From positions 806,001 to 870,000 of the forward strand of contig NZ_CP110680.1 of assembly GCF_028583725.1 (NCBI RefSeq): a stretch of 64,000 nt of DNA, in the 5' to 3' direction. The notes beneath the pieces are model-generated. The model saw only the letters and a list, made by a program, of their open reading frames with translations. It did not search any database and was not told the origin of the DNA. This stretch comes from Cellulomonas fimi (GTDB lineage Bacteria > Actinomycetota > Actinomycetes > Actinomycetales > Cellulomonadaceae). This document shows, piece by piece, positions 12,046 through 53,293 of this stretch (position 1 is the first letter of the stretch; each line of letters opens with the position of its first letter). The translations under genes were made by a program, and so were the position numbers.

Positions 12046-13257
12046 GTGGTCGTCCTGGTCCCGGCGTACGAGCCGGACGCCCGGCTGGTGACGCTCGTGC
12101 AGGCGTTGCGCCGCGCGCGCCCGCACGTGCCGGTGGTGGTCGTGGACGACGGCAGCGGCCCGGGGTACCGGCCGGTCTTCGCCGCCGCGGGTCGCGCGGG
12201 CGCCGACGTCCTCACCCACCCCGTCAACCGTGGCAAGGGGGTCGCGCTGCGGACGGGTGTCGCGCACGTCCTCGCCCGGCACCCCGGTGCCGACGTCGTC
12301 TCGGCGGACTGCGACGGCCAGCACACCGTCGGCGACGTGCTCGCGGTCGCGGACCGCGTGGCGCGCGGCGACGTGGCGGTCGTGCTCGGCGCGCGGTCGT
12401 TCGCGGGGGACGTGCCGCTGCGCAGCCGCGTCGGCAACACGTGCACGCGCGTCGCGTTCCGGCTCGGCACGGGCGTGCCGGTGCGGGACACCCAGACGGG
12501 GCTGCGCGGGTACCCGGCGGACATGCTGCCGTGGCTGCTCGACGTGCCGGGGGACCGGTTCGAGTACGAGCTCGCGGTGCTGCTGCGTGCCGCCGACGAG
12601 CGGCGGACGGTCGTCGAGGTGCCGATCGCGACGGTGTACCTCGACGGGAACGCGTCGTCGCACTTCCGCCCGCTCGTCGACTCGGCACGCGTGTACGCGC
12701 CGCTGCTGCGGTTCGTCGCGTCGTCCCTCGCCGGGTTCGCCGTGGACGCGGTGGCGCTGCTCGCGCTCGCGGCCGCGACGGGGTCGCTGCTCGCCGCGAC
12801 GGTCGGCGCGCGGGTGCTCAGCGGGGCGGTGAACTTCGGCCTCAACCGCCGCTGGGTGTTCCGGCGCGGCGCGACCGGGCCGGTGTCGCGCGAGGCCGTG
12901 GCGTACGCGCTGCTCGCGGTGAACCTGCTGCTCGCGGGCTACGCGGGGCTGCGGGTGCTGACGCACGCCGGGGTGCCGCTGCTCGCCGCGAAGGTCGTCG
13001 CCGACCTCGTGCTGTTCCTCGTCGGCTACCGCGTGCAGCGGACCGCCGTGTTCCGCGGCCCCCGGGTCGCACCGGGGGCCGCGAGAACGGGTGCGCCGGG
13101 TCAGGCGGCGGGGACCTCGACGTCGACGCGCACGACGTCGCCGGTGCGCGCGAAGACGCGCCCGCTCACGTCGGCGTCGAGCACGCCGTCGGTGCCCTCG
13201 ACGCGCGAGCCGTCGGCCAGCACGGCGGTGACGCGCAGCGCCGACCCGCGCCGGTAG
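12046..13257 (+). CDS. Glycosyltransferase family 2 fused to a GtrA-like membrane domain
   Basis: 403 residues, GTG start. Residues 1-210 form a GT2 domain (VVVDDGSG near 25, ADCDGQH near 86 as the metal/sugar site), similar to polyprenyl-phosphate sugar transferases. Residues about 222-345 hold four membrane segments of the GtrA type, which flip or anchor lipid-linked sugars. The last 50 or so residues are low-complexity and are read opposite the end of the minus-strand gene that stops at 13101, a 157-base convergent overlap. The natural functional end is near VFRGPRV. Confidence 0.88.
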   Translation: MVVLVPAYEPDARLVTLVQALRRARPHVPVVVVDDGSGPGYRPVFAAAGRAGADVLTHPVNRGKGVALRTGVAHVLARHPGADVVSADCDGQHTVGDVLAVADRVARGDVAVVLGARSFAGDVPLRSRVGNTCTRVAFRLGTGVPVRDTQTGLRGYPADMLPWLLDVPGDRFEYELAVLLRAADERRTVVEVPIATVYLDGNASSHFRPLVDSARVYAPLLRFVASSLAGFAVDAVALLALAAATGSLLAATVGARVLSGAVNFGLNRRWVFRRGATGPVSREAVAYALLAVNLLLAGYAGLRVLTHAGVPLLAAKVVADLVLFLVGYRVQRTAVFRGPRVAPGAARTGAPGQAAGTSTSTRTTSPVRAKTRPLTSASSTPSVPSTREPSASTAVTRSADPRR

Positions 13258-16200
13258 ACGACGGGGACCTGGCAGAACGTGAAGGCCAGCGAGCCCGCGT
13301 CGAGCGCGATCGTCTGCTCCTGCTGCGCCGCGTCGTGGAAGCGGAACGTCGCGGGCGCCTCCGTCCACTCGTCGGCGCGCAGGAGCGCGGGCCGCACGAC
13401 GACGCGGCCGTCCTCGACCCGCAGCCCGAGCTCGCCGAGCCGCGTGAGGACCTCCTCCTTGACCTGACCGGTCATGCCGGGCTGGCGGGCACCGTGCCCG
13501 GCGGGCGTGTGCGAGTACGGGTCGACGGGGAACGCGCCGTAGACCTCGGGCGACTTGCAGTAGCCGAGCCCGAGCCGGACGTCCTCGTACGCGTCGGCCA
13601 GGCCCTGGACGACCGCCGCGTCGAGGCCCTGGGCGACCGCCCGCTCGTGGTTCTCCTGCACCGCGAGCAGCAGCTTGGAGACCATGTGCCAGTAGATGCT
13701 GCCGAGGCCCTCGTACGCGAAGAACGAGCCCGACCGGCCGGTGAACTCGGCGTGCCGGAAGACCTGCTCGAACACGTCCAGCACGGCGTCGCGCCCGTCG
13801 GCGACCTGCTGCGGTGCCACGCCGGGTGCGCCCGCGGCCAGCGCGTCGAGGGCTGCGACGACGTCGCGCGCGTTGTGCAGGCCCGGCGCGAACCGGTGCA
13901 CGCCGTGCACGTCGCGCAGCACGAGCGTCGTGTCGCCCGCGGCGACCAGCGCGTCGAGCAGCGGCGCGCTCGCGGCCTGGGCCTCGGTGATCGTGTTGCG
14001 CGCGAGGAACGTCGGCAGCTCGCGGTCGGGGTACAGCTGGTAGGAGTGCTGGTCCGCGCGGTACAGGGCGCTGCGGCGCAGCGCGTGCACGAGGTCGAGC
14101 GCCTCCGCGGGCGTCAGGAGCCCGGACGACAGGACCGCGACCTGGCCCTCGAGCATCTCCTGCAGGTGCCCGACGCGTGCGACGCCGCCGCGCAGGTCGA
14201 GCAGGTTGTAGGAGTGGAAGAGCCCGTCGGGCCGACGGTTCGCGCGCAGGCCCGCGTCGACGTACCGCTGCGCGACGTCGAGGAACGCCCGCACCCCGGC
14301 TGCGCCGACCGTCCGGTGCGCGCCGCCGAACCCGGCGTACACGCGCGTCCGGTAGGCGGTGCCTGCGGCGCCGAGGTCGTCCATGACGGCCCGTCGCCCG
14401 GCGTCGTCGAACCCGCCCTCGACCGACGCGGCGTGCGCGTCGAGCGCGGCGGTCACGTCGGCCAGCAGCCCGGCGAGCTCGTCGGTGACGGTGAGGTCGT
14501 GGTCGAGCAGGTCGCGGGCCAGCGCGAGCGCGCGGCGCAGGTACGCGAGCGTCACGACCGACAGGCCCTTGCCGACCAGCGCGTTGTTCGCGTCGTTCCA
14601 CTCGGGGCGCTGCGTGTTCATCCAGATGCCGCCGTCGGGCACGAGGTTGACGACCTTCGCGAGCACGAGCAGCAGCAGCTTCTCGCCGAGCGACACGCGC
14701 ACGAGGTCGCCGTCGGCGCCGTGCACGAGGCGGCCGTCGGCACCCTCCGTGCGGACCCGTGCCTGCACGCGCTCCTCGGCGGCGGTGTCGAACGTGATGG
14801 TCTCGATCGGCTCGACGACGGTCTGCTCGTACGACGCGATCCGGTACGGCACGTCCGCGTGCGTGAACAGCGCGCGGTCGACGAGCGCGTCGAGGCGGCC
14901 GGGGTGGAAGCGTCGCGACGTCTCCAGCAGCTTGACCAGGTAGACGATCTGGTGGTCGCTCCAGTAGCCGATGTTCGCCCACGGGTTCGACGGCTCGGGG
15001 ACCTCCCAGTCGATGCCCGAGCGCGAGATCCGGTACGGGTTGTAGCCGTCGGCGGTCGTCGCGTCGAGGAAGACCGCGACCATCGAATCGACGTAGCCCG
15101 GGAACGACCAGGCGAGCGCCTCCCAGTTCTGGAAGATGTCGCGCCAGTTGCCCTGGAAGTCGACGCGCGTGCGGCCCTTCGCGTCCGTGAGGGCGATCTG
15201 GAACTTGTTCCACGGCCGGCTCGGGTCGCCGTGCCGGCGGCTGAAGGTCAGCGGCAGGTACTCGCGCACCAGGCGCAGCAGGTCGACGTCGCCGCTCGCG
15301 TCGGCGCGCTCCAGCAGCGTGTCGAGGTCGGTGGTCGCGGGCAGCGCGTCGAGCCAGTCGCGGCGACGCGCGGCGGTCCGCGGCGAGCGCTGCGCGACGA
15401 ACGCGCGCAGGTCGTCGGCGGACACCGTGTAGCCGTCGACCGGCACGCCGCCGCGCATGACGTTGAACAGCACGTTCGCCGCGTGGTGCGCGGACGCGAG
15501 CTCGTCGCCGGTGACCTGCGCGGCGTCGGCGGTGCCGACCAGGCGGTCCAGCCGCTCGCGCGTCCCGACGACGTCGGCCTCCAGCGCGGCGGCCGCGGCG
15601 TCGGCGTCCGCGAGCTCGTCCTGCAGCCGGACGACGTCGGCGGCGCTCTGGTCGACGTCGGCGACGACCCGCCAGCGGCGCGTCTCGCCGGGCGCGAGCG
15701 CGACGTCCGCGACCACGAGGTACGCGCCCTTCTCGCCGCGGACCTCGTGCTCCGGGGCGACCGGGCGGCCCGCCGCGAACGCGCCGACCTGCCGCGTCGA
15801 GGTGAGGTGCGCGACCGGGTCGAGGCCCACCTGCCACGCGACCGTCGCCGCGAGCGACTCGCTCGGGTCGCTCTTGTCGGTCAGTGTCGAGTTCAGGTAG
15901 ACGAGCCCGAGGCCCGTCGCGGCGTCGACCTCGGTGCGCTTGTACGCGTCGAGCAGGCTGCTGAACTCGGCCTGCGTCTGGACGGTCACGCCCGCGGGCA
16001 GCAGGTCGACGAACCCGTCGAGCACCTGCGCGCGCACGGGCGCGTCGGCGACCGCGGTGAGCGCGACCTCCCGGACGACGCCGTACCGGGCGCTGGTCCG
16101 CCACGCGACCCGCGCGCGCAGGCCGAGGTCGGGGCGGGTCTCCTCGAAGACGAGCGTCGTGCCGAGGTAGTCCTTGAAGAGGTGGCGCTCGACGGCGGGG

Positions 16201-16550
16201 TCGTCGGGGCGGCGCTCGGCGAACGGCTGCCACGCGCGCGTGCCGGCGGGCGTCTCGACGCGCAGCAGCGTGAACCCGCCGGTGCGGCCGGCGCCCGCGG
16301 CCACCTTGTCGTCGGTCGAGTACGGGAACAGCGCGCGGTCGGCGTGCTCGCGACCTGCGGTGACGCCGCCCGTGCTCGACACGAACAGCCACAGGTCGCT
16401 CGCCCCGACGAGCGTCATGAAGAACGGCGGCAGGTCGTCGTACGACGCGATCCGGTAGAACCGCCGCCCGTCGAGGTCCACGGGCCCGCTCGTGACGAGC
16501 GCGTCGCCGGGCTCGTCGGTGCGTGCGGGCGTGAGGGTCTGCGACGCCAT
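13101..16550 (-). CDS. Large putative (alpha/alpha)6-barrel carbohydrate-active protein
   Basis: 1149 residues from the ATG at 16550 (GAAGGA ribosome site upstream; a longer frame to 16667 would cross a palindrome). It is cytosolic, without signal peptide. The N-terminal third looks like a beta-sandwich (GRRFYRIASYDDLPPFFMTL). The middle has very conserved-looking aromatic blocks, FQGNWRDIFQNWEALAWSFP and DGYNPYRISRSGIDWEVPEP, then NPWANIGYWSDHQIVYLVKL. These recall GH94-like cellobiose phosphorylase and cyclic-glucan enzymes, but I cannot place a catalytic acid. Family and substrate are uncertain. Confidence 0.6.
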   Translation of the reverse strand: MASQTLTPARTDEPGDALVTSGPVDLDGRRFYRIASYDDLPPFFMTLVGASDLWLFVSSTGGVTAGREHADRALFPYSTDDKVAAGAGRTGGFTLLRVETPAGTRAWQPFAERRPDDPAVERHLFKDYLGTTLVFEETRPDLGLRARVAWRTSARYGVVREVALTAVADAPVRAQVLDGFVDLLPAGVTVQTQAEFSSLLDAYKRTEVDAATGLGLVYLNSTLTDKSDPSESLAATVAWQVGLDPVAHLTSTRQVGAFAAGRPVAPEHEVRGEKGAYLVVADVALAPGETRRWRVVADVDQSAADVVRLQDELADADAAAAALEADVVGTRERLDRLVGTADAAQVTGDELASAHHAANVLFNVMRGGVPVDGYTVSADDLRAFVAQRSPRTAARRRDWLDALPATTDLDTLLERADASGDVDLLRLVREYLPLTFSRRHGDPSRPWNKFQIALTDAKGRTRVDFQGNWRDIFQNWEALAWSFPGYVDSMVAVFLDATTADGYNPYRISRSGIDWEVPEPSNPWANIGYWSDHQIVYLVKLLETSRRFHPGRLDALVDRALFTHADVPYRIASYEQTVVEPIETITFDTAAEERVQARVRTEGADGRLVHGADGDLVRVSLGEKLLLLVLAKVVNLVPDGGIWMNTQRPEWNDANNALVGKGLSVVTLAYLRRALALARDLLDHDLTVTDELAGLLADVTAALDAHAASVEGGFDDAGRRAVMDDLGAAGTAYRTRVYAGFGGAHRTVGAAGVRAFLDVAQRYVDAGLRANRRPDGLFHSYNLLDLRGGVARVGHLQEMLEGQVAVLSSGLLTPAEALDLVHALRRSALYRADQHSYQLYPDRELPTFLARNTITEAQAASAPLLDALVAAGDTTLVLRDVHGVHRFAPGLHNARDVVAALDALAAGAPGVAPQQVADGRDAVLDVFEQVFRHAEFTGRSGSFFAYEGLGSIYWHMVSKLLLAVQENHERAVAQGLDAAVVQGLADAYEDVRLGLGYCKSPEVYGAFPVDPYSHTPAGHGARQPGMTGQVKEEVLTRLGELGLRVEDGRVVVRPALLRADEWTEAPATFRFHDAAQQEQTIALDAGSLAFTFCQVPVVYRRGSALRVTAVLADGSRVEGTDGVLDADVSGRVFARTGDVVRVDVEVPAA

Positions 16551-16642
16551 GTCCTGATCGTCCTTCGTGCCGGGGCGCGGAGCGACCGGTCGGGGGAGCG
16601 GTCGGGCCGCGTCGGTGCGGCCGTGGGTGCGCTCCCATACAG

Positions 16643-16654
16643 TGACACGTGTCA
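16643..16654. promoter_or_regulatory. Perfect palindrome TGACACGTGTCA, putative operator
   Basis: A 12-bp perfect palindrome, 93 bases before the start of the minus-strand carbohydrate gene and about 140 before the plus-strand PLDc_N gene. On the minus strand it gives a TTGACA hexamer, so a regulator bound here could block that promoter. The regulator is not identifiable. Confidence 0.45.
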
Positions 16655-16792
16655 ACGAGGAAGGCAACGGCCCTCGGTCCCGCCGCGCGCGCTCGCCGGC
16701 GTCCGGGTCACCCGAACGCGCCCGCCCGGGCGGGCCGCTCCGCTAGCCTGCGTCCGCCGGGGCGCGGGGCCTGCGGCACCGGAGGAGGGGTC

Positions 16793-17291: not shown

Positions 17292-17594
17292 ATGCTCGTG
17301 CTCAGCAGACGCGTCGGTGAGCGTCTCGTCATCGGGGACGACATCGTCGTCACCGTGATCGAGGTCCGCAGCGACGGCGTGCGCCTGGGCATCGACGCCC
17401 CCCGCGACGTCCGCGTGCACCGCGCCGAGGTCCTCGAGGCCCTCACGGCCGCCAACGCCGACGCCGCGGCCGCCGACGACAGCACCGCCGCGGCCCTCCG
17501 CCGCCTCGCGCCGCCGGCTGCGAGCCCGCCGGGCGAGAGCGGCACCGGCACCACCTCCGCCGATCCCTCAGCAGGGACCTCCACCGGCCGATGA
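17292..17594 (+). CDS. csrA: CsrA, post-transcriptional regulator
   Basis: 100 residues. The first 60 form a complete CsrA fold (MLVLSRRVGERLVIGDDIVV, then VTVIEVRSDGVRLGIDAP). The tail is an Ala/Ser/Pro-rich extension not seen in short CsrA proteins. CsrA binds GGA motifs in mRNA leaders. In flagellated Gram-positives it represses flagellin and is held by FliW, which is not in this window. A TAGGGT -10 box (17279-17284) lies so close to the ATG that the message is probably leaderless. It stands 48 bases before cheA. Confidence 0.93.
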   Translation: MLVLSRRVGERLVIGDDIVVTVIEVRSDGVRLGIDAPRDVRVHRAEVLEALTAANADAAAADDSTAAALRRLAPPAASPPGESGTGTTSADPSAGTSTGR

Positions 17595-17642: not shown

Positions 17643-20195
17643 GTGGAGGACATCGACGAGATCGTCCGCGAGTTCCTGGTCGAGAGCTACGAGAACCTCG
17701 ACCAGCTGGACCGGGACCTCGTGGAGCTCGAGGAGAACCCGGGCGACAGGCCGCTGCTCAGCAGCGTCTTCCGGACGATCCACACCATCAAGGGGACGAG
17801 CGGGTTCCTCGCGTTCTCCCGCCTGGAGCGCGTGACGCACGCGGGCGAGAACCTGCTGGTCGAGCTGCGCGACGGCCGCCGGCAGATGGACCAGGTGACC
17901 ACCGACGTGCTGCTGCGCACCGTCGACACCGTCCGCCTGCTGCTCGACGCGATCGAGCGGACCGGCGGCGAGGGCGACGTCGACGTCGACGTGGTCGTCG
18001 AGGCCATCGTGGCGGTGCAGGAGGGGCGCACGGCCGCCGCGCCCGCCACCGCGGCACCGGCCCCGGCCGCCGAGCCCGCCGTGACGCCCGCCGAGGCGGC
18101 GCCCGCCGCGGCAGAGCCGACCGACGCGGTCGAGCCCGCCCCCGAGCCGGCGACCGACGTGCCGCACCCCCGCGAGGCCCCCGCCGACGAGACCGCCGCG
18201 CAGGTCGGCGCGGCCGCCGCCGCGCCCGCGGCCGAGGCCGTCGCGACCCCGGACAAGGCCCCGACGATCAAGCAGATCGCGCGGCGCGTCCCGACGACCC
18301 CCGCCGCACCGCCCGCGCCGGCCGGCGGGTCCGGCGCCGGCGACGTGACGCCGGTGCTGCCCACGCCGCACGTCGACCCCGACGCGCAGCGCGCGGCCGA
18401 CGAGGCGCTGGAGGCGGCCGCCGTGCAGGCGCTCGCCACCGCGGCGCTCGCGGATCTCTCGACGGGGCGCGAGTACCAGCCGACGATGGCTCCCGCGGCC
18501 GCGCCGCTGGAGGAGGTCGGCACGCTGCGCGGCGCGAGCGAGTCGTCGGTGCGCATCGACGTCGACCTGCTGGACCGCCTCATGCGGCAGGTCGGCGAGC
18601 TCGTCCTGGTCCGCAACCGGCTCACCCGGCTCGCGGCGGAGTCGCAGGACGTCGACCTCACGCGGTCCGCGCAGCAGCTCAACCTCATCGCCTCCGAGCT
18701 GCAGGACGGGGTCATGCGGACCCGCATGCAGCCCATCGAGAACGTCTGGGCGAAGATGCCGCGCGTCGTGCGCGACCTCGCCGCGACGTGCGGGCGCGAG
18801 GTGCGCCTCGAGCTCGTCGGCGGCGACACGGAGCTCGACCGCAGCCTGCTGGAGGCCGTCAAGGACCCGCTGACGCACCTCGTGCGCAACGCGGTCGACC
18901 ACGGCATCGAGCCGCCGGCCGAGCGCGTCGCCGCGGGCAAGCCGTCGCACGGCACGCTCGAGCTGCGCGCCTTCCACGCGGGCGGTCAGGTCGTCGTCGA
19001 GGTCCGCGACGACGGCCGCGGCATCGACCCGCAGAAGGTCGCCGAGTCGGCGGTCCGCAAGGGCCTGCGCACGCCCGAGCAGGTCGCGTCGCTCGGCCAG
19101 GCGGAGATGCTGGGCCTGCTGTTCCTGCCGGGCTTCTCGACGGCCGCGGCGGTCACGAACGTGTCCGGCCGTGGTGTCGGCATGGACGTCGTGCGCACGC
19201 GCATCGAGGCGGTGGGCGGGACGGTCGACGTCGAGTCCACCGTCGGCGTCGGGACGTCGTGGCGCCTGCGGATCCCGCTGACGCTGGCGATCATGCCGTC
19301 GCTGTCCGTCGAGTGCGACGGCGACGTGTACGCGGTGCCGCAGGTCCACGTGCTCGAGCTGGTCGCGCTCGACGAGCGCGCGGAGCAGGCCGTCGAGCAC
19401 GTGCACGAGGCACCCGTCTACCGGCTGCGCGGCGAGCTGCTGCCGCTCGTGCCGCTGCACGACGTGCTCGGCCTGTCCGACGGCGAGCCCGCCGGGTCGC
19501 GGCCCGGGGTGATCGTCGTCGTGCAGGCGGACGACAACCGCTTCGGTCTGCTCGTCGACCGCGTGCTCGCGACCGAGGAGATCGTCGTGACGCCGCTCGC
19601 GGCGCAGCTCAAGTCCGTGAGCACCTACGCGGGCACCACCGTGCTCGGCGACGGGCGCGTCGCGCTCATCCTCGACATGCAGTCGATCGCCCGCGAGGCC
19701 ATGCCGCGCGAGCACGAGCACGCGTCGGTCGGGCACGCGTCGACGGTCGCCGAGGAGACGCACGAGACCGAGCAGCTGCTCGTCGCCCGCATCGGTGAGG
19801 GCCGGCTGGTCGCGATGCCGCTCGCCGGCGTCGCGCGCCTCGAGCACGTGCGGTCCGACGAGGTCGAGACGGTCGGCGACCGCGAGGTCGTGCAGTACCG
19901 CGGTTCGATCCTGCCGCTCGCCCGCGTCGACGCGCTGGTCGGTGCGACCCCCGAGGACCGCGACGAGCTCCTGCTCGTCGTGTACGAGCGGGGTTCGCGC
20001 AGCGCCGCGCTCGTCGTCGAGGACATCGTCGACATCGTCGAGGACCACGCCGAGCACTCCGACATCGACGCCGCCGGGCTCGTCGGCTCGACCGTCGTGC
20101 ACGGGCGCGTCACCGAGCTGCTCGACCTGCCCGCCGCGCTGCTCGCGGCTGACCACGACTTCGAGTCCGACGACCTGCTGGAGAGTGTCGCGTGA
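17643..20195 (+). CDS. cheA: CheA, chemotaxis histidine kinase with two CheW-like domains
   Basis: 850 residues, GTG start after a GGGGAGG site. The HPt domain has phospho-accepting H47 (TIHTIKGTSGFL). Residues about 125-275 are an Ala/Pro/Glu-rich linker with no clear P2 domain. Dimerisation and kinase domains follow, with the N-box HLVRNAVDHGIEP and G-box DDGRGIDPQKV and GRGVGMDVV. The C-terminus carries one CheW-like (P5) domain at about 555-685 and a second, more diverged one at about 700-830. It autophosphorylates and passes phosphate to CheY and CheB. The stop overlaps cheW. Confidence 0.96.
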   Translation: MEDIDEIVREFLVESYENLDQLDRDLVELEENPGDRPLLSSVFRTIHTIKGTSGFLAFSRLERVTHAGENLLVELRDGRRQMDQVTTDVLLRTVDTVRLLLDAIERTGGEGDVDVDVVVEAIVAVQEGRTAAAPATAAPAPAAEPAVTPAEAAPAAAEPTDAVEPAPEPATDVPHPREAPADETAAQVGAAAAAPAAEAVATPDKAPTIKQIARRVPTTPAAPPAPAGGSGAGDVTPVLPTPHVDPDAQRAADEALEAAAVQALATAALADLSTGREYQPTMAPAAAPLEEVGTLRGASESSVRIDVDLLDRLMRQVGELVLVRNRLTRLAAESQDVDLTRSAQQLNLIASELQDGVMRTRMQPIENVWAKMPRVVRDLAATCGREVRLELVGGDTELDRSLLEAVKDPLTHLVRNAVDHGIEPPAERVAAGKPSHGTLELRAFHAGGQVVVEVRDDGRGIDPQKVAESAVRKGLRTPEQVASLGQAEMLGLLFLPGFSTAAAVTNVSGRGVGMDVVRTRIEAVGGTVDVESTVGVGTSWRLRIPLTLAIMPSLSVECDGDVYAVPQVHVLELVALDERAEQAVEHVHEAPVYRLRGELLPLVPLHDVLGLSDGEPAGSRPGVIVVVQADDNRFGLLVDRVLATEEIVVTPLAAQLKSVSTYAGTTVLGDGRVALILDMQSIAREAMPREHEHASVGHASTVAEETHETEQLLVARIGEGRLVAMPLAGVARLEHVRSDEVETVGDREVVQYRGSILPLARVDALVGATPEDRDELLLVVYERGSRSAALVVEDIVDIVEDHAEHSDIDAAGLVGSTVVHGRVTELLDLPAALLAADHDFESDDLLESVA

Positions 20196-20611
20196 ACCGC
20201 TACGTCACGTTCACGATCGGCGACGACCTGTACGGCGTCGACGTGCTGCGCGTCCAGGAGGCGCTGCGCGCGCACGCCCGCACGCGCGTGCCGCTCGCGC
20301 CGCCCGGGATCGCGGGGGTCGTCAACCTGCGCGGTCAGGTCGTCGTGACCGTCGACCTGCGGCCGCGGCTGGGGCTGCCGGGCCTCGCCCAGGACGCCGA
20401 GCCGATGATGGTGGTCGTCCAGGTCGACGGCGAGCCGGTGAGCCTGCTGGTCGACGAGATCGGCGACGTCCTCGACGTGCCCGTCGAGGACGTGGGCGCG
20501 CCGCCGGAGACGCTCGACCCGGCCCTGCGGTCCCTCATCCGCTCGGCCTGCACGCTCGACGACCGGCTGCTGCTGGTGCTGGACGTCGACGAGGCCGCGG
20601 CCGCCGCCTGA
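20192..20611 (+). CDS. cheW: CheW, receptor-kinase coupling protein
   Basis: 139 residues, a single CheW domain (YVTFTIGDDLYGVDVLRVQE, GVVNLRGQVVVTVDLRPRLG). It bridges the receptor tip and CheA P5. Its GTG overlaps the cheA stop by four bases. Confidence 0.96.
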   Translation: MNRYVTFTIGDDLYGVDVLRVQEALRAHARTRVPLAPPGIAGVVNLRGQVVVTVDLRPRLGLPGLAQDAEPMMVVVQVDGEPVSLLVDEIGDVLDVPVEDVGAPPETLDPALRSLIRSACTLDDRLLLVLDVDEAAAAA

Positions 20612-20709: not shown

Positions 20710-22332
20710 ATGAGCAAGACCTCCCGCGACGGCGCCCCGCGTCGGCGCATGAGCCTGGGCAACCTGGGCATCCAGACGAAGATGATGCTGCTGCTCGGCC
20801 TCGTGGCGTTCGTCGCCCTCGGCTCGGGCGCGTTCGCCTACGTCGCCCTCCAGCGTGCCGCCCAGGACCTGCGGGACGTCGACGTCGTCGCCACCGAGGT
20901 GGCCGCGCTGTCCCGCTCGGTCGACGACGGCCAGCACAACGCTCGGCTCATCGTCGCCCAGATCGCGGCCGTCAAGAACCCCGTCATCCGCAAGGGCTGG
21001 GTCGAGCTGCAGCGGCGCAACGACATGGACATGGCCGAGGCGATCGAGGCGTTCGGGACGTCGAGCGGCGCGGTGGGCAACGCGGCCTGGCCCGCGTTCG
21101 TCGACTCGTACCAGACGTGGGTCGTGCTGCGGGACGAGAAGGTCGTGCCCGCCGCGCTGGCCGACGACGCCGACGCGTACTCCTCGATCTCCGACACCGT
21201 GAGCCAGCCGGCCATCGACGACTTCGTGCTGAAGTTCGACGAGGTCGAGAAGGCGATGGCCGCGCAGGTCACCGCGACGACCGACGCCGCGCAGGACCGC
21301 GTCGACATGGCGGGCTACATCCTCGGGATCAGCCTGTTCGCCGGTCTGGCGATCTCGATGTTCCTCGGCTTCAAGACGGCGTCCGGCATCCGCAAGAGCG
21401 TGTGGGACATGTGCCGCGCGCTCAACGGCATGGCCGTCGGCGACTTCACGCGGACCGTCCCGGGCACGTCGCGCGACGAGATGGGGCAGATGCGCGAGGC
21501 CCTCACCCGCGCCCAGGCCGGGGTCCGCGAGACGCTGACCGAGGTCAAGCACACGGCCGACGAGGTCGCCGTCGCGGCCGAGCAGCTCTCCGCGTCCTCG
21601 AGCCAGGTCGCGTCCGGCTCGGACGAGACGAGCGCGCAGGCGGGCGTCGTCGCGGCCGCGGCCGCGCAGGTGTCGCGCAACGTGCAGGCCGTCGCGGCGG
21701 GCGCCGAGCAGATGGGCGCGTCGATCCGCGAGATCGCGCAGAACGCGACCGAGGCCACGAAGGTCGCGCAGGCGGCCACGGGCGCCGCGGCGAGCGCGAA
21801 CGACTCCGTGTCGCGCCTCGGCTCGTCGAGCCAGGAGATCGGCAAGGTCGTCAAGCTCATCACGTCGATCGCGGAGCAGACGAACCTGCTCGCGCTCAAC
21901 GCGACCATCGAGGCCGCGCGGGCCGGCGAGGCCGGCAAGGGCTTCGCGGTCGTCGCGGGCGAGGTCAAGGAGCTCGCGTCGGAGACCGCCAAGGCGACCG
22001 AGGACATCGCGCGCCGCGTCGAGGCGATCCAGGCCGACACCACGGGTGCCGTCGCCGCGATCGGCGAGATCGGCACGATCATCGCGTCGATCAACGACTA
22101 CCAGCTGACCATCGCGTCGGCCGTCGAGGAGCAGACCGCGACGACCAACGAGATGTCCCGCGGCGTGGCCGAGGCCGCCACCGGTTCCGGCGAGATCGCC
22201 GCGAACATCACCGGGGTCGCCACGTCCGCCGCCACCAGCTCGCAGGTGCTCACCCAGATGGGCGACTCCGTCACCGAGCTGGCCCGCATGTCCGCCGACC
22301 TGCGCGAGCGGGTGTCGATGTTCACCTTCTGA
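20710..22332 (+). CDS. Methyl-accepting chemotaxis protein
   Basis: 540 residues from the ATG at 20710 with AAGGAG just upstream; a GTG three bases earlier is an alternative. TM1 (about 20-42) and TM2 (about 198-218) enclose a 155-residue extracellular helical domain of the four-helix-bundle type. A HAMP domain and the signalling domain follow, with the highly conserved tip [19 protein letters not shown]. There is no C-terminal CheR-docking pentapeptide. The ligand is unknown; the next gene encodes a binding-protein-like lobe that may be its partner. Confidence 0.94.
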
Positions 22333-22388
22333 CCGAAGGTGCACCACCGCCGGGCCACGGAAGGCCCGCCGGCACGAAGGAGACAGGG

Positions 22389-22808
22389 ATGTCGCGACGG
22401 AAGGCTTGGGCGGCGTCGGTCATGGCGCTCGCCGTGGCGGCCGCGTTCGCCCACCAGACCGGGGACGGCGAGGTCAGCGGCGACGCGCTCGCCCGGTGGC
22501 AGGCCACACGGCTCGTCGGCGTGACGCTGCCGGCGACCGGCTGGGCCGAGGAGGGCGACGTGCTCGTGCAGCGCCTCGCCCAGCTCGGGTACGGCGTGCG
22601 CGTGCACTACGCGCCCGACTCGGCGACCCAGGTCGCGCAGGTGCACCTGCTCGTCGACGGCGGTGCCGACGCGGTCGTCGCGGTCGCGGTCGCCGAGGGC
22701 ACCCTCGACGACGTGCTCCAGCAGGCCCGGCTGCGCGGTGTGGTCGTCGTCCCGTACGAGGCCGACGTCGCGACGAGCGTCGAGGCGCAGCTCGGCGGCG
22801 TCGCGTGA
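22389..22808 (+). CDS. Secreted one-lobe homologue of periplasmic sugar-binding proteins
   Basis: 139 residues, ATG start. A signal peptide (Arg-rich start, hydrophobic 8-21) precedes a domain like the N-terminal lobe of XylF/ChvE-type binding proteins: LVGVTLPATGWAEEGDVLVQ, then LGYGVRVHYAPDSATQVAQV, LLVDGGADAVVAVAV and GVVVVPYEADV. Family members have two lobes and about 330 residues; this one stops after the first. It lies between the receptor and cheB, whose GTG overlaps its stop, so it is translated with the chemotaxis set. It may feed ligand information to the receptor. Function is inference; homology is by eye. Confidence 0.6.
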   Translation: MSRRKAWAASVMALAVAAAFAHQTGDGEVSGDALARWQATRLVGVTLPATGWAEEGDVLVQRLAQLGYGVRVHYAPDSATQVAQVHLLVDGGADAVVAVAVAEGTLDDVLQQARLRGVVVVPYEADVATSVEAQLGGVA

Positions 22809-23938
22809 GCCGGATCCGGGTGCTCGTCGTCGACGACTCGGTCGTCGTGCGGCGCATCGTCAGCGACGTGCTCGGGCAGGACCGGCGCATCGAGGTCGTC
22901 GGGATCGCCGCGAACGGCCGGCTCGCGCTCACGAAGGTCGCGCAGCTCCAGCCCGACCTCGTGACGATGGACGTCGAGATGCCGGAGATGGGCGGCATCG
23001 AGACGGTCGCGGAGCTGCGCGCACAGGGCTACCGGATGCCGATCGTCATGTTCTCGACGCTCACCGAGCGCGGCGCGACGGCGACGCTCGACGCGCTCGC
23101 GGCCGGCGCGACCGACTACGTCACGAAGCCCAGCGGCACCGCGTCGGTGCACGAGGCGCTCGCCCGGGTCGCGCACGACCTGATCCCGCGCATCCTCGCG
23201 CTCGTCCCGCGCACCGAGGACGTCGTCGACGTGCGGCAGCCCGCGGCGCCCGCACACGCCGCGCACGCCGCCCCGCCGGTCGACGTGCTCGCGCCCGGCG
23301 CCGAGCCCGTCACGCGGCCGATGCCCGCGGCGCACCCCGTGCAGCTCGTCGTCGTCGCGTCGTCCACGGGCGGCCCCGAGGCGCTCACCCGCGTCCTGCG
23401 CGGCCTCACCGCGCCGCCGCCCGTGCCCGTCCTCGTCGTGCAGCACATGCCGCCCGTCTTCACGCGTCAGCTCGCCGCGCGGCTCGACCGGGTCGGTCCC
23501 GCCGCGGTCGTCGAGGCGGGCGACGACGAGCCGCTGCTGCCCGGGACCGTCTACATCGCCCCCGGCGACCGGCACCTCGGCGTCGACACCCGGACCGGCA
23601 TGCTGCGCACCGCGCTCGACGACTCGCCGCCCATCAACTTCTGCCGGCCCGCGGCCGACGTCCTGTTCCGCTCCGCCGTGCGCGCCGTGCGCGGCGAGCT
23701 GCTCGGCGTGGTCCTCACCGGCATGGGCGTCGACGGCCGGCAGGGCTGCGTCGACGTCGTCGGCGCGGGCGGGACCGTCCTCGTGCAGGACCAGCCGTCG
23801 AGCGTCGTCTGGGGCATGCCCGGAGCCGTCGCCACCGCCGGGCTCGCGCACCGCGTGCTGCCCGTCGACCAGATCCCCGCGGCCGTGGAGGACGTCCTCA
23901 GCCACGCCACCGCCGAACCCACCGGAGCGCACCGATGA
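22805..23938 (+). CDS. cheB: CheB, receptor methylesterase/deamidase
   Basis: 377 residues, GTG start. Receiver domain with phospho-acceptor D56 (TMDVEMPEMGG), a His/Ala/Pro-rich linker, and the methylesterase domain with catalytic serine in VASSTGGPEAL, histidine in VVQHMPPVF and aspartate in LTGMGVDG. It removes methyl groups from receptors and, with CheR, sets adaptation. Both ends overlap neighbours by four bases. Confidence 0.97.
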   Translation: MSRIRVLVVDDSVVVRRIVSDVLGQDRRIEVVGIAANGRLALTKVAQLQPDLVTMDVEMPEMGGIETVAELRAQGYRMPIVMFSTLTERGATATLDALAAGATDYVTKPSGTASVHEALARVAHDLIPRILALVPRTEDVVDVRQPAAPAHAAHAAPPVDVLAPGAEPVTRPMPAAHPVQLVVVASSTGGPEALTRVLRGLTAPPPVPVLVVQHMPPVFTRQLAARLDRVGPAAVVEAGDDEPLLPGTVYIAPGDRHLGVDTRTGMLRTALDDSPPINFCRPAADVLFRSAVRAVRGELLGVVLTGMGVDGRQGCVDVVGAGGTVLVQDQPSSVVWGMPGAVATAGLAHRVLPVDQIPAAVEDVLSHATAEPTGAHR

Positions 23939-24867
23939 GCCTCGCCCCCGACGCCTTCGCCTACGTCGCGGAGCTGGTGGCACGACGCGCCGGCATCAAC
24001 CTCGACGCGGGCAAGGAGTACCTCGTGGAGTCCCGGCTCCAGCCGCTCGCGCAGCAGGCCGGGCACACGCGGGTCGACACGTTCGTGCGCGAGCTGCGCG
24101 GAGTCGAGCGCGAGGCCGACGTGCGTGCCGTCGTCGACGCGCTCACCACCAACGAGACGTCGTTCTTCCGCGACGGCGCACCGTTCCACGCGCTCGCCGA
24201 GCACGTCGTGCCCGCGCTGCGTGGCCCGGACGGCACGCTGCCCCGCCTGCGGGTCTGGTCGGCGGCCTGCTCGACCGGGCAGGAGCCGTACTCGATCGCG
24301 ATGACGCTCGCCGACGCCGCACCCGACACGGCCGTCGAGATCGTCGCGACCGACATCAACGCGACCGTGCTCGACCGCGCGTCGCAGGGCCTCTACTCGC
24401 GGCTCGAGACGAACCGCGGGCTGCCCGCGCAGATGCTCGTCCGCCACTTCGAGGCCGACGGCACCGGCTGGCGCGTGCGCGACTCCCTGCGCCGGCAGGT
24501 CACGTTCCTGCGGCACAACCTCCTCGACGCGCCGCCGTTCGGCGGGGGCTTCGACGTGGTGTTCCTGCGCAACGTGCTCATCTACTTCGACCTGCCGGTC
24601 AAGCAGGCCGTCCTCGACCGCGTGCTCGCGGCCATGCGCCCCGGCGGGTTCCTCGTCCTCGGCGCCGCGGAGACGACGATCGGTCTCGACGACGGCTGGG
24701 AGCGGGTGCCCGTCGAGCGCGGAGCCGTGTACCGCGCCGCCGCCGTGCCCAGCCTCCTCGCCCCGACCGTCCGGCCGTTCCCCGCCCTTGCCCCCCTCGG
24801 TGTCGTGCCGTCCGCGCGCGCCGCCGCCGTCCAGCTGTCCGACAGCGTCCGAGGAGAGAGCCGATGA
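23935..24867 (+). CDS. cheR: CheR, receptor methyltransferase
   Basis: 310 residues. The N-terminal helical domain (about 1-75, LTTNETSFFRD) is followed by an S-adenosylmethionine-binding domain (RVWSAACSTGQEPYSIAM, IVATDINATVLDRA, DVVFLRNVLIYFD). It methylates receptor glutamates. A 50-residue Ala/Pro tail has no known role. The stop overlaps the following cheY. Confidence 0.97.
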   Translation: MSLAPDAFAYVAELVARRAGINLDAGKEYLVESRLQPLAQQAGHTRVDTFVRELRGVEREADVRAVVDALTTNETSFFRDGAPFHALAEHVVPALRGPDGTLPRLRVWSAACSTGQEPYSIAMTLADAAPDTAVEIVATDINATVLDRASQGLYSRLETNRGLPAQMLVRHFEADGTGWRVRDSLRRQVTFLRHNLLDAPPFGGGFDVVFLRNVLIYFDLPVKQAVLDRVLAAMRPGGFLVLGAAETTIGLDDGWERVPVERGAVYRAAAVPSLLAPTVRPFPALAPLGVVPSARAAAVQLSDSVRGESR

Positions 24868-25247
24868 GAGCACTCGTGGTCGACGACTCGCGGACGATGC
24901 GCCGCATCGTCGCGAACGTCCTGGAAGGGCTCGGGTTCTCGACGACCCAGGCCGCCGACGGCCAGGAGGCCCTCGACGCCCTCCAGCAGGAGGGGGCCGT
25001 GGACCTCGTCACCGTCGACTGGAACATGCCCGTGATGGACGGGCTCGAGCTCGTCACGCACGTCCGCAAGAACCGCGAGTGGCGCGGCGTGACGCTCATG
25101 ATGGTCACGACCGAGGCCGAGCAGTCCCAGATCGTGCGTGCGCTCGCGGCAGGCGCGCACGAGTACCTGATCAAGCCGTTCACCGCCGAGGAGCTGCGGG
25201 CGAAGCTCGACCTGCTCGGCCTCGTCCCCGTGGAGGAGACCGCATGA
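24864..25247 (+). CDS. cheY: CheY-like response regulator, first copy
   Basis: 127 residues, one receiver domain. D7-D8 bind magnesium, D52 (TVDWNMPVMDG) accepts phosphate, and T82-region and K (YLIKPF) complete the active site. There is no output domain, so it should act by protein contact, probably at the flagellar switch. It precedes cheX with a four-base overlap. Confidence 0.93.
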   Translation: MRALVVDDSRTMRRIVANVLEGLGFSTTQAADGQEALDALQQEGAVDLVTVDWNMPVMDGLELVTHVRKNREWRGVTLMMVTTEAEQSQIVRALAAGAHEYLIKPFTAEELRAKLDLLGLVPVEETA

Positions 25248-52285: not shown

Positions 52286-52325
52286 CGACCTGCTTCAAGG
52301 AACCCTCCTCCGCGAAGCCCTCGAG

Positions 52326-52505
52326 CGGAACGCCGAACCCTGCCGCCGCCCCGAGGTCCGTACGAACCGCCGGCAGGGGCGGGGGACCCACGTTTTGTGG
52401 TCCACCGGAGACGGTGACCTTGGGGTGAAGCCGAGGTGGCAGCAGGACCGCCGCCGACGCCGAGTGTTCTCCCACTCGAACCCGACAGCTCACCTCGCAG
52501 GCGAC
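52326..52505 (+). ncRNA. ydaO-yuaA (c-di-AMP) riboswitch
   Basis: The conserved ydaO blocks appear in order: CGCCGAACCCTG (52331-52342), CCGGCAGGGGCGGGGGACCC (52370-52389), GGGGTGAAGCCG (about 52422-52433), CTCGAACCCGACAGCTCACC (52475-52494) and TCGCAGGC (52495-52502). This order is specific for the class. In actinomycetes it controls wall hydrolases of the NlpC/P60 and Rpf types, as here; high c-di-AMP normally turns the gene off. The nlpC GTG follows 15 bases later. Exact borders are approximate. Confidence 0.93.
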
Positions 52506-52519
52506 AGGAGAGGCACCTA

Positions 52520-53293
52520 GTGACCGTGAGCACCACCCGCGCCCGGCACCGGTCTGCGCGTCGTCCCTCGACGCCCCTGACCGAGCTCGCTTCGGCCGCA
52601 TCGGAGCAGATGGGCACCGTCGGCCGCCGTACGGCCGTCGTCGCCGCGTCCTCCGGCCTCGTCGTCACGATGATCGGTGCCCCCGCGGGCGCCGCGTCGG
52701 ACAGCTCGGCGGCCGGAGCCCTGAACTCCGTCGACACCGCAGCACTGACCGCGTCCGCGCGTGCCGTGCTCAACACGTCCCCCGTCGTCAGCTCCCCGGC
52801 CGAGGCCGCGTGGACCTTCGACGCCCCGACCGTCACGGCCGTCAAGCCGACGCCTCCGCCGGAGACGCGCCGCGCCACGGCGACGACCACGTCGCGCACG
52901 GCGGCCCGCACGGCGACGCCCGCCGCGGCGACCACCAACGCGCCGATCCCGCAGTCGGTGGCCGGCAACGCGGTCCTCGAGATCGCCGCCCGCTACGTGG
53001 GCACCCCGTACGTCTCCGGTGGCTCCTCGCCCGCCGGCTTCGACTGCTCGGGCTTCGTCTCGTACGTCTACGCGCAGCTCGGCGTCTCCCTGCCGCGCAC
53101 GTCGTCGGGCATCAAGGCGGCCGCGACCGTCATCTCCCGCGACCAGGCGCAGCCGGGTGACCTCATCTGGAGCCCCGGCCACATCTCGATCTACGCCGGT
53201 GGCAACCAGCAGATCGACTCGCCGCGCCCCGGCAAGACGGTCCAGTTCCGCGCGATCTGGCAGTCCTCGCCGGTCTTCCTGCGGGTCGGCTGA
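52520..53293 (+). CDS. Secreted NlpC/P60 cell-wall endopeptidase
   Basis: 257 residues from the GTG at 52520 (AGGAGAGG upstream). A signal region (about 34-60) precedes a Thr/Ala/Pro-rich linker, and the NlpC/P60 domain fills the C-terminal 120 residues: catalytic Cys in GFDCSGFVSYVY, His in SPGHISIYAG and the third polar residue in NQQIDSP. It cuts peptidoglycan stem peptides. The c-di-AMP riboswitch in its leader ties wall cutting to osmotic and wall stress. Confidence 0.93.
   Translation: MTVSTTRARHRSARRPSTPLTELASAASEQMGTVGRRTAVVAASSGLVVTMIGAPAGAASDSSAAGALNSVDTAALTASARAVLNTSPVVSSPAEAAWTFDAPTVTAVKPTPPPETRRATATTTSRTAARTATPAAATTNAPIPQSVAGNAVLEIAARYVGTPYVSGGSSPAGFDCSGFVSYVYAQLGVSLPRTSSGIKAAATVISRDQAQPGDLIWSPGHISIYAGGNQQIDSPRPGKTVQFRAIWQSSPVFLRVG

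Follow-up and report, generated by a model that had tools for sequence, protein, structure and literature searches.

A one-lobe ChvE-type protein in a Cellulomonas chemotaxis operon, the probable reduced descendant of a two-lobe sugar-binding lipoprotein

The binding proteins MglB and RbsB feed the receptor Trg, and LsrB reportedly works with Tsr; MglB, RbsB, LsrB and XylFII are all two-lobed and signal by ligand closure. A XylFII-LytS complex is the title of an entry (5xsd_B) among the structure matches listed in this work. Common to MglB/RbsB-Trg, LsrB-Tsr and XylFII-LytS is a binding protein that signals through a membrane receptor. Precedent also exists for single-domain binding proteins encoded close to MCPs: RmSBP of Rhodothermus marinus is a single-domain substrate-binding protein (SBP) whose gene lies near an MCP gene and for which no ligand was found and the function is given as unknown (PMC10805632). 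The statement in the initial annotation of the present locus, that no half-lobe chemotaxis partner had been described, must therefore be withdrawn. Engineered ribose-binding halves fold alone and bind no ribose (PMC10601554). Among the matches listed in a literature search for one-lobe binding proteins in chemotaxis there was solely the Rhodothermus work and these engineered halves.

The window analysed here, 64,000 nucleotides of Cellulomonas fimi (contig NZ_CP110680.1, positions 806,001 to 870,000), contains a che operon in which a gene for a one-lobe ChvE-type protein lies between the receptor gene and cheB (Table 1). Like RmSBP, the one-lobe protein is a natural single alpha/beta domain with an MCP gene nearby, and where RmSBP has a signal peptide it has an N-terminus that looks suited to export. 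RmSBP, however, resembles the C-terminal domain of Trp/Phe-binding proteins, according to its description (PMC10805632), whereas the one-lobe protein is a ChvE-type N-lobe; further, the one-lobe gene, unlike that of RmSBP, lies inside a che operon and has full-length relatives in the same operon of sister species. RmSBP (5z6v) was absent from the matches listed in the sequence and fold searches, an absence which excludes nothing. With ChvE and XylF (NF040907; PDB 3urm, 3m9w) the N-lobe is homologous, and ChvE-type full-length proteins occupy the operon of relatives, but the one-lobe protein has no C-lobe, RW, YDR or lipobox and falls far below the family cut-off. An isolated N-lobe is also found in the Thermotoga proteins RBP-N and RBP-CPN; these are laboratory constructs meant to model an ancestor (PMC10601554, PMC9815098), whereas the one-lobe lineage appears to have shrunk from two lobes to one naturally and to have kept the one. 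Unlike the two-lobed proteins that feed receptors, the one-lobe form cannot close. What is new here is a ChvE-type N-lobe with a visible history.

Table 1. Features of the che operon and segments of the one-lobe protein, in window positions
Feature	Position	Strand	Remarks
cheA	17643..20195	+	
cheW	20192..20611	+	
Receptor McpA (MCP)	20710..22332	+	outer domain about residues 47-200, boundaries chosen by us
AAGGAG, resembling a ribosome site	22377..22382	+	5' of the one-lobe ATG, from sequence
One-lobe ChvE-type protein gene (P0001)	22389..22808	+	139 aa; AlphaFold2 model
N-terminal hydrophobic segment, residues 1-21	22389..22451	+	MSRR...AVAAAFA, no Cys
N-lobe core, residues 40-122	22506..22754	+	b1-a1-b2-a2-b3-a3-b4; pLDDT blocks 92-97; superposes on ChvE 3urm
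b1-a1 loop, residues 49-52	22533..22544	+	RW of full-length proteins gone, 3 residues shorter
b4 loop, residues 123-126	22755..22766	+	YDRLI conserved in full-length proteins gone
C-terminal helix, residues 127-136	22767..22796	+	from the model; sequence support from group II tails alone
cheB	22805..23938	+	start codon shares bases with the one-lobe stop codon
cheR	23935..24867	+	
cheY	24864..25247	+	

The gene runs from an ATG at 22389 to a stop codon at 22806-22808, and the GTG start of cheB at 22805 gives a 4-base overlap (GTGA) with that stop; the initial annotation, which had placed a 139-residue protein with start-stop overlap between receptor and cheB, was right in this. The cheB/cheR and cheR/cheY overlaps are likewise of 4 bases, and so the overlap is ordinary in this operon. 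Upstream the gene adjoins the MCP gene, its ATG being separated from the mcpA stop codon by 56 bases. This spacer (22330-22388, stop codon included) is the same at 56/59 positions in genome G115 and at 51/59 in G114, and because it is so well conserved it offers no neutral yardstick for the one-lobe gene. From its hydrophobic N-terminus the protein may be exported or anchored. Elsewhere in the window, a large minus-strand ORF (13101-16667), which we take to resemble a cellobiose/cellodextrin phosphorylase, flanks the che operon and an ORF (17292-17594) that reads like csrA, while a c-di-AMP riboswitch (52321-52517; Rfam RF00379, 50.2 bits) lies at the start of ORF 52436-53293, the translation of which reads like an NlpC/P60-type secreted protein.

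Sequence profiles match the one-lobe protein solely to the N-lobe of ChvE/XylF-type proteins. The NCBIfam ChvE model NF040907 is matched over positions 1-87 of 324 with an E-value of 1.8e-11, but the score of 43.8 bits against a curated cut-off of 460 leaves the protein outside the full-length ChvE family. The Pfam family Peripla_BP_4 (PF13407) gave E 1.2e-6 and 28.7 bits, below the gathering cut-off of 35.1, although the same family is nonetheless assigned to the one-lobe orthologues in the protein collection; the ChvE structure 3urm was matched at E 2.3e-8. The AlphaFold2 model is a single lobe with the N-lobe fold, so that the protein is related to the ChvE type in N-lobe fold and in sequence but lacks the two-lobe form. 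PDB entries 7qsq and 7pu4 were among the Foldseek matches of this model, and PHROGs gave no result for the protein. A model of the record P0009 was poor (mean pLDDT 63.9) and was not used. The likeness to the XylF/ChvE N-lobe alone, noticed at the outset from motifs, is supported by the profile matches and by the predicted structure of the lobe by itself.

Short orthologues occupy the same slot in 7/81 genomes of the genus that were searched, with 139 residues in G000, G102, G115, G132 and G114 and 151 in G155 and G106. The reading frame is open in all seven and in the protein records P0008-P0012, and copies 96 percent identical are present in records named Cellulomonas septica, C. algicola and C. 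fimi HM71. When a large protein collection was searched with a profile of the seven short sequences, scoring the 7996 candidates that shared most words, 11 proteins were found, of which 10 belong to the short lineage, records of C. biazotea and C. chitinilytica included. An Ala/Pro-rich linker precedes the C-terminal helix in four of these ten (P0009, P0010, P0012 and the fragment P0014). The eleventh, P0013 (133 aa, from a 602-base contig), is likely a frameshifted fragment of a full-length protein and was left out of the lineage.

Of the 81 genomes, 61 yielded a cheB. The first comparison covered 42 che regions of the genus, the window included; seven carry the one-lobe form, 25 a two-lobe SBP in one frame, one a frameshifted two-lobe SBP (G125) and nine neither. 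Of these nine, G135 is possibly a false absence, since its region is cut by a contig end and an SBP lies near the end of a separate 36256-base contig. Another 13 regions were then compared, many of them broken off at the end of a contig, and yielded one two-lobe form (G124) and no one-lobe form; six of the 61 cheB genomes were left out or opened at short loci only, and G104, which is near the one-lobe clade by its cheB, was left unscored because its contigs break inside cheB and, judging by their length, soon after cheW. A TAG stop lies inside the cheB match of another genome (G153:C1:1660877-1661527), where the MCP matches of the region (L128) are split.

The usual order in the relatives is cheA, cheW, at least one MCP, SBP, McpB, cheB, with additional MCPs between McpB and cheB in G134, G127 and G144. 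In G125 the SBP and its receptor are upstream of cheA, and the SBP match is split over two frames (L129, 4669-5939, the cheB orientation being the reverse of the locus). A ChvE-type SBP stands beside its own receptor McpB in 24 che regions of the genus and, in other genera, at loci L135, L136, L137, L138, L140, L141 and L142. The pair is inside the che operon in 7/8 opened regions of other genera, which were picked for strong SBP matches and not sampled; G063 has it elsewhere. The pairing is not strict, as G113 has a McpB-type receptor (L101:9328-10920) and no SBP match in its che region. McpB is presumably of the type that is fed by a binding protein, as in the two-lobed systems above; a literature search for such a pair in che operons gave no description among the matches listed. 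One of the one-lobe genomes, G114, has a second, full SBP-McpB pair outside its che operon (L132:7216-10031; G114:C1, about 1970166-1971931, minus strand). This pair groups apart from the neighbour clade and may be a separate acquisition.

A tree of CheW, CheB and CheR was built from 36 of the 42 regions and rooted at the midpoint, six with short pieces (G132 among them) having been dropped. The one-lobe genomes, of which six of the seven are in the tree, group as a single clade at support 1.0, and their neighbours are G083, G117, G118 and G119, all two-lobe, the support of this neighbourhood not having been read. In the MCP tree, for which supports were not printed, a single clade holds all 24 placeable MCPs that directly follow an SBP, and two more, of G125 and G113, belong to it. 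The seven one-lobe genomes have their receptors outside this McpB clade, near upstream MCPs of G083, G117, G119, G165, G144 and G127 and also near MCPs of four genomes without an SBP; the remaining upstream MCPs sit in a different part of the tree. This placement indicates that the C-lobe and McpB were lost from the operon and that the upstream MCP (McpA) was kept. As a query, the N-terminal 197 residues of McpB found nothing above 25 percent identity at E 0.001 in 6/7 one-lobe genomes. A relationship between McpA and McpB can be recognised in their N-terminal portions when the membrane segments are counted in (E 5.6e-8 in G083). A tree of N-lobes leaves the exact origin unsettled because the short proteins evolve fast. 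With the two-lobe gene taken as the older state, these gene comparisons show that the one-lobe gene arose by reduction of a two-lobe SBP gene of the che operon, the partner receptor having been lost from that operon.

The reduction has removed more than the second lobe. The RW before the first helix and the YDRLI after strand four are each present in 25/25 full-length proteins and in 0/7 short ones, and a lipobox was found by pattern in 24/25 against 0/7 (for the full-length proteins a script picked the start sites). The short proteins have no Cys except for a sole Cys7 in G155 and G106. The cleft loops and helices aN, a1 and aC belong to the regions that agree worst with the full-length consensus. 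We take the DR of YDR to correspond to Asp89 and Arg90 of ribose-binding protein, and XylF presumably uses both the RW and the YDR motif, for which we assume a role with the ligand. Asp89 and Arg90 of ribose-binding protein are tabulated as binding-site side chains (PMC2630998). Since cleft motifs, second lobe and lipid anchor have all been lost, sugar binding is unlikely, and the one-lobe protein most likely no longer binds sugar.

How the C-lobe went may be seen in the C-terminal tail. For group II of the short proteins, all eight tails (mutually related, and cut to 23-residue pieces chosen by eye after the likeness had been noticed) match the SBP profile best, without gaps, in its return segment at column 298, with a mean score of 17.9 there and 6.6 at the next best position. 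Column shuffles reached the tail score anywhere in 27/3000 cases and at the place of column 298 in 0/3000; when 20,000 random 23-mers were drawn from che proteins, 0 to 0.4 percent matched the tail score at the return segment, and anywhere in the SBP profile 0.14 to 39 percent did as well. Searched alone with the SBP HMM, 5/6 tails went to the return segment with weak E-values of 0.03-0.32, a single second-domain match (P0012) was weak at E 0.64, and MAFFT unaided aligned the tails to that segment. Five of the eight, on the other hand, score higher in the longer McpB profile, at scattered places (mean best 13.6), and the tails of the window's own group make no consistent choice of the return segment. 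Superposed on ChvE, the model aligns as far as chain residue 282, which on our reading of the range would lie where the ChvE chain comes back to the N-lobe; this fit is not independent of the reading as an excision, since the model was built from an alignment that places the tails there. Internal excision of the C-lobe, with the return helix kept, is supported but not proven. A single deletion joining the SBP N-lobe to the end of McpB was rejected: the last 23 residues score -20 to -27 against the McpB C-terminus.

Selection on the gene was estimated as dN/dS by the Nei-Gojobori method with a script of our own. The ratio is 0.072-0.113 in four pairs among G000, G102, G115 and G132, near the values for cheW and cheA, rises to 0.30 and 0.35 in comparisons with G114 and to 0.42 for G155/G106, and reaches 0.69 and 0.60 between the two short groups, the highest among the six genes compared in those pairs. 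For G000/G115, 24/30 differences are at third positions (P 2.1e-7 for the excess), and for G155/G106 30/62 (P 0.0099). These codon changes therefore show clear purifying selection among the close relatives of the window and weaker constraint over the clade as a whole. Conservation of the one-lobe protein exceeds that of the McpA outer domain, with the domain boundaries that we chose, in 6/6 pairs (96 v 80, 96 v 93, 96 v 93, 75 v 60, 49 v 37 and 82 v 74 percent identity); measured against cheW, the one-lobe protein matches or slightly exceeds it in three close pairs and falls short of it in the five remaining pairs that have both values. Its first 30 residues are 0.60 identical between the two short groups, above 9/13 other segments, whereas those of the full-length proteins are 0.35 identical, below 12/13 other segments.

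In identity and origin, the protein is very probably a reduced descendant of the two-lobe ChvE-type sugar-binding lipoprotein of the che operon. The fuller reading that we prefer, held at a little short of even confidence, is that this SBP has been reduced to a retained, ligand-free accessory lobe, probably acting on McpA. In the ancestor of the clade the SBP C-lobe and the partner receptor gene mcpB were lost from the operon, leaving mcpA, one lobe and cheB, and the remaining lobe has been kept by selection although without cleft motifs, second lobe or lipid anchor. Exported, or held outside the membrane by its conserved N-terminal segment, the small lobe may contact the outer domain of McpA, itself a relative of the lost McpB, and may set the sensitivity or stability of that receptor; the role on McpA, taken by itself, is suggested tentatively and is somewhat doubtful. 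Counting against this explanation, eight che regions of the genus (nine with the cut G135) carry neither form, and the protein, with one lobe or two, is thus dispensable for chemotaxis in general. The weaker selection further out in the clade and the full SBP-McpB pair elsewhere in the G114 genome also speak against it, and part of the conservation could serve the translation of cheB. A more specific version, in which binding-protein evolution ran in reverse, with the C-lobe excised, the N-lobe closed by its own return helix and the product left as a ligand-free regulator on McpA after the loss of McpB, we regard as rather unlikely.

It is also conceivable, if unlikely, that the gene is kept mainly as a leader for stop-start translation of cheB and that its product contributes little. 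In all seven genomes the one-lobe gene shares 4 bases with cheB, and the mcpB stop already overlaps the cheB start in the four two-lobe neighbours G083, G117, G118 and G119, the gaps in other regions read being at least 28 bases (G126 was unreadable); the weak amino-acid selection between the two short groups fits such a leader too. Yet a leader has no need of a foldable core, the constraint on amino acids in close relatives is near that on cheW, silent changes exceed amino-acid changes, and neighbouring genes overlap in the same way. The initial annotation had proposed instead a sensory half that binds ligand jointly with the outer domain of McpA, or else by dimerising to restore the cleft. 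ChvE N-lobe homology and fold and the place in the che operon would suit such a half, and engineered ribose-binding halves are stable alone and regain binding when paired with the other lobe (PMC10601554). By the same source isolated halves bind no ribose, however, and no second match to a full SBP was present in the one-lobe che regions fetched; the absence of RW and YDR in 7/7 and of a McpB-type receptor from the operon weakens this proposal, which we consider improbable. Finally, a truncated gene would look like a piece of a larger one, and the annotation had named an intact two-lobe gene in a related genome, simply truncated here, as the finding that would count against it. The intact gene is indeed there in relatives, but the fact that seven genomes keep the short form, and that it is under selection among close relatives, rules out simple truncation to junk; with the frame open in the additional records P0008-P0012 also, a decaying pseudogene or an assembly artefact is very improbable.

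The change to a single lobe can be located on a species tree, with full-length, one-lobe and absent states all found within one genus, and the role of the lone lobe is therefore directly testable. The one-lobe protein is a natural counterpart to the laboratory halves that were made to study the origin of the binding-protein fold. Further, the SBP-McpB block, present in che operons across several genera, hints at where these bacteria may locate their sugar sensing.
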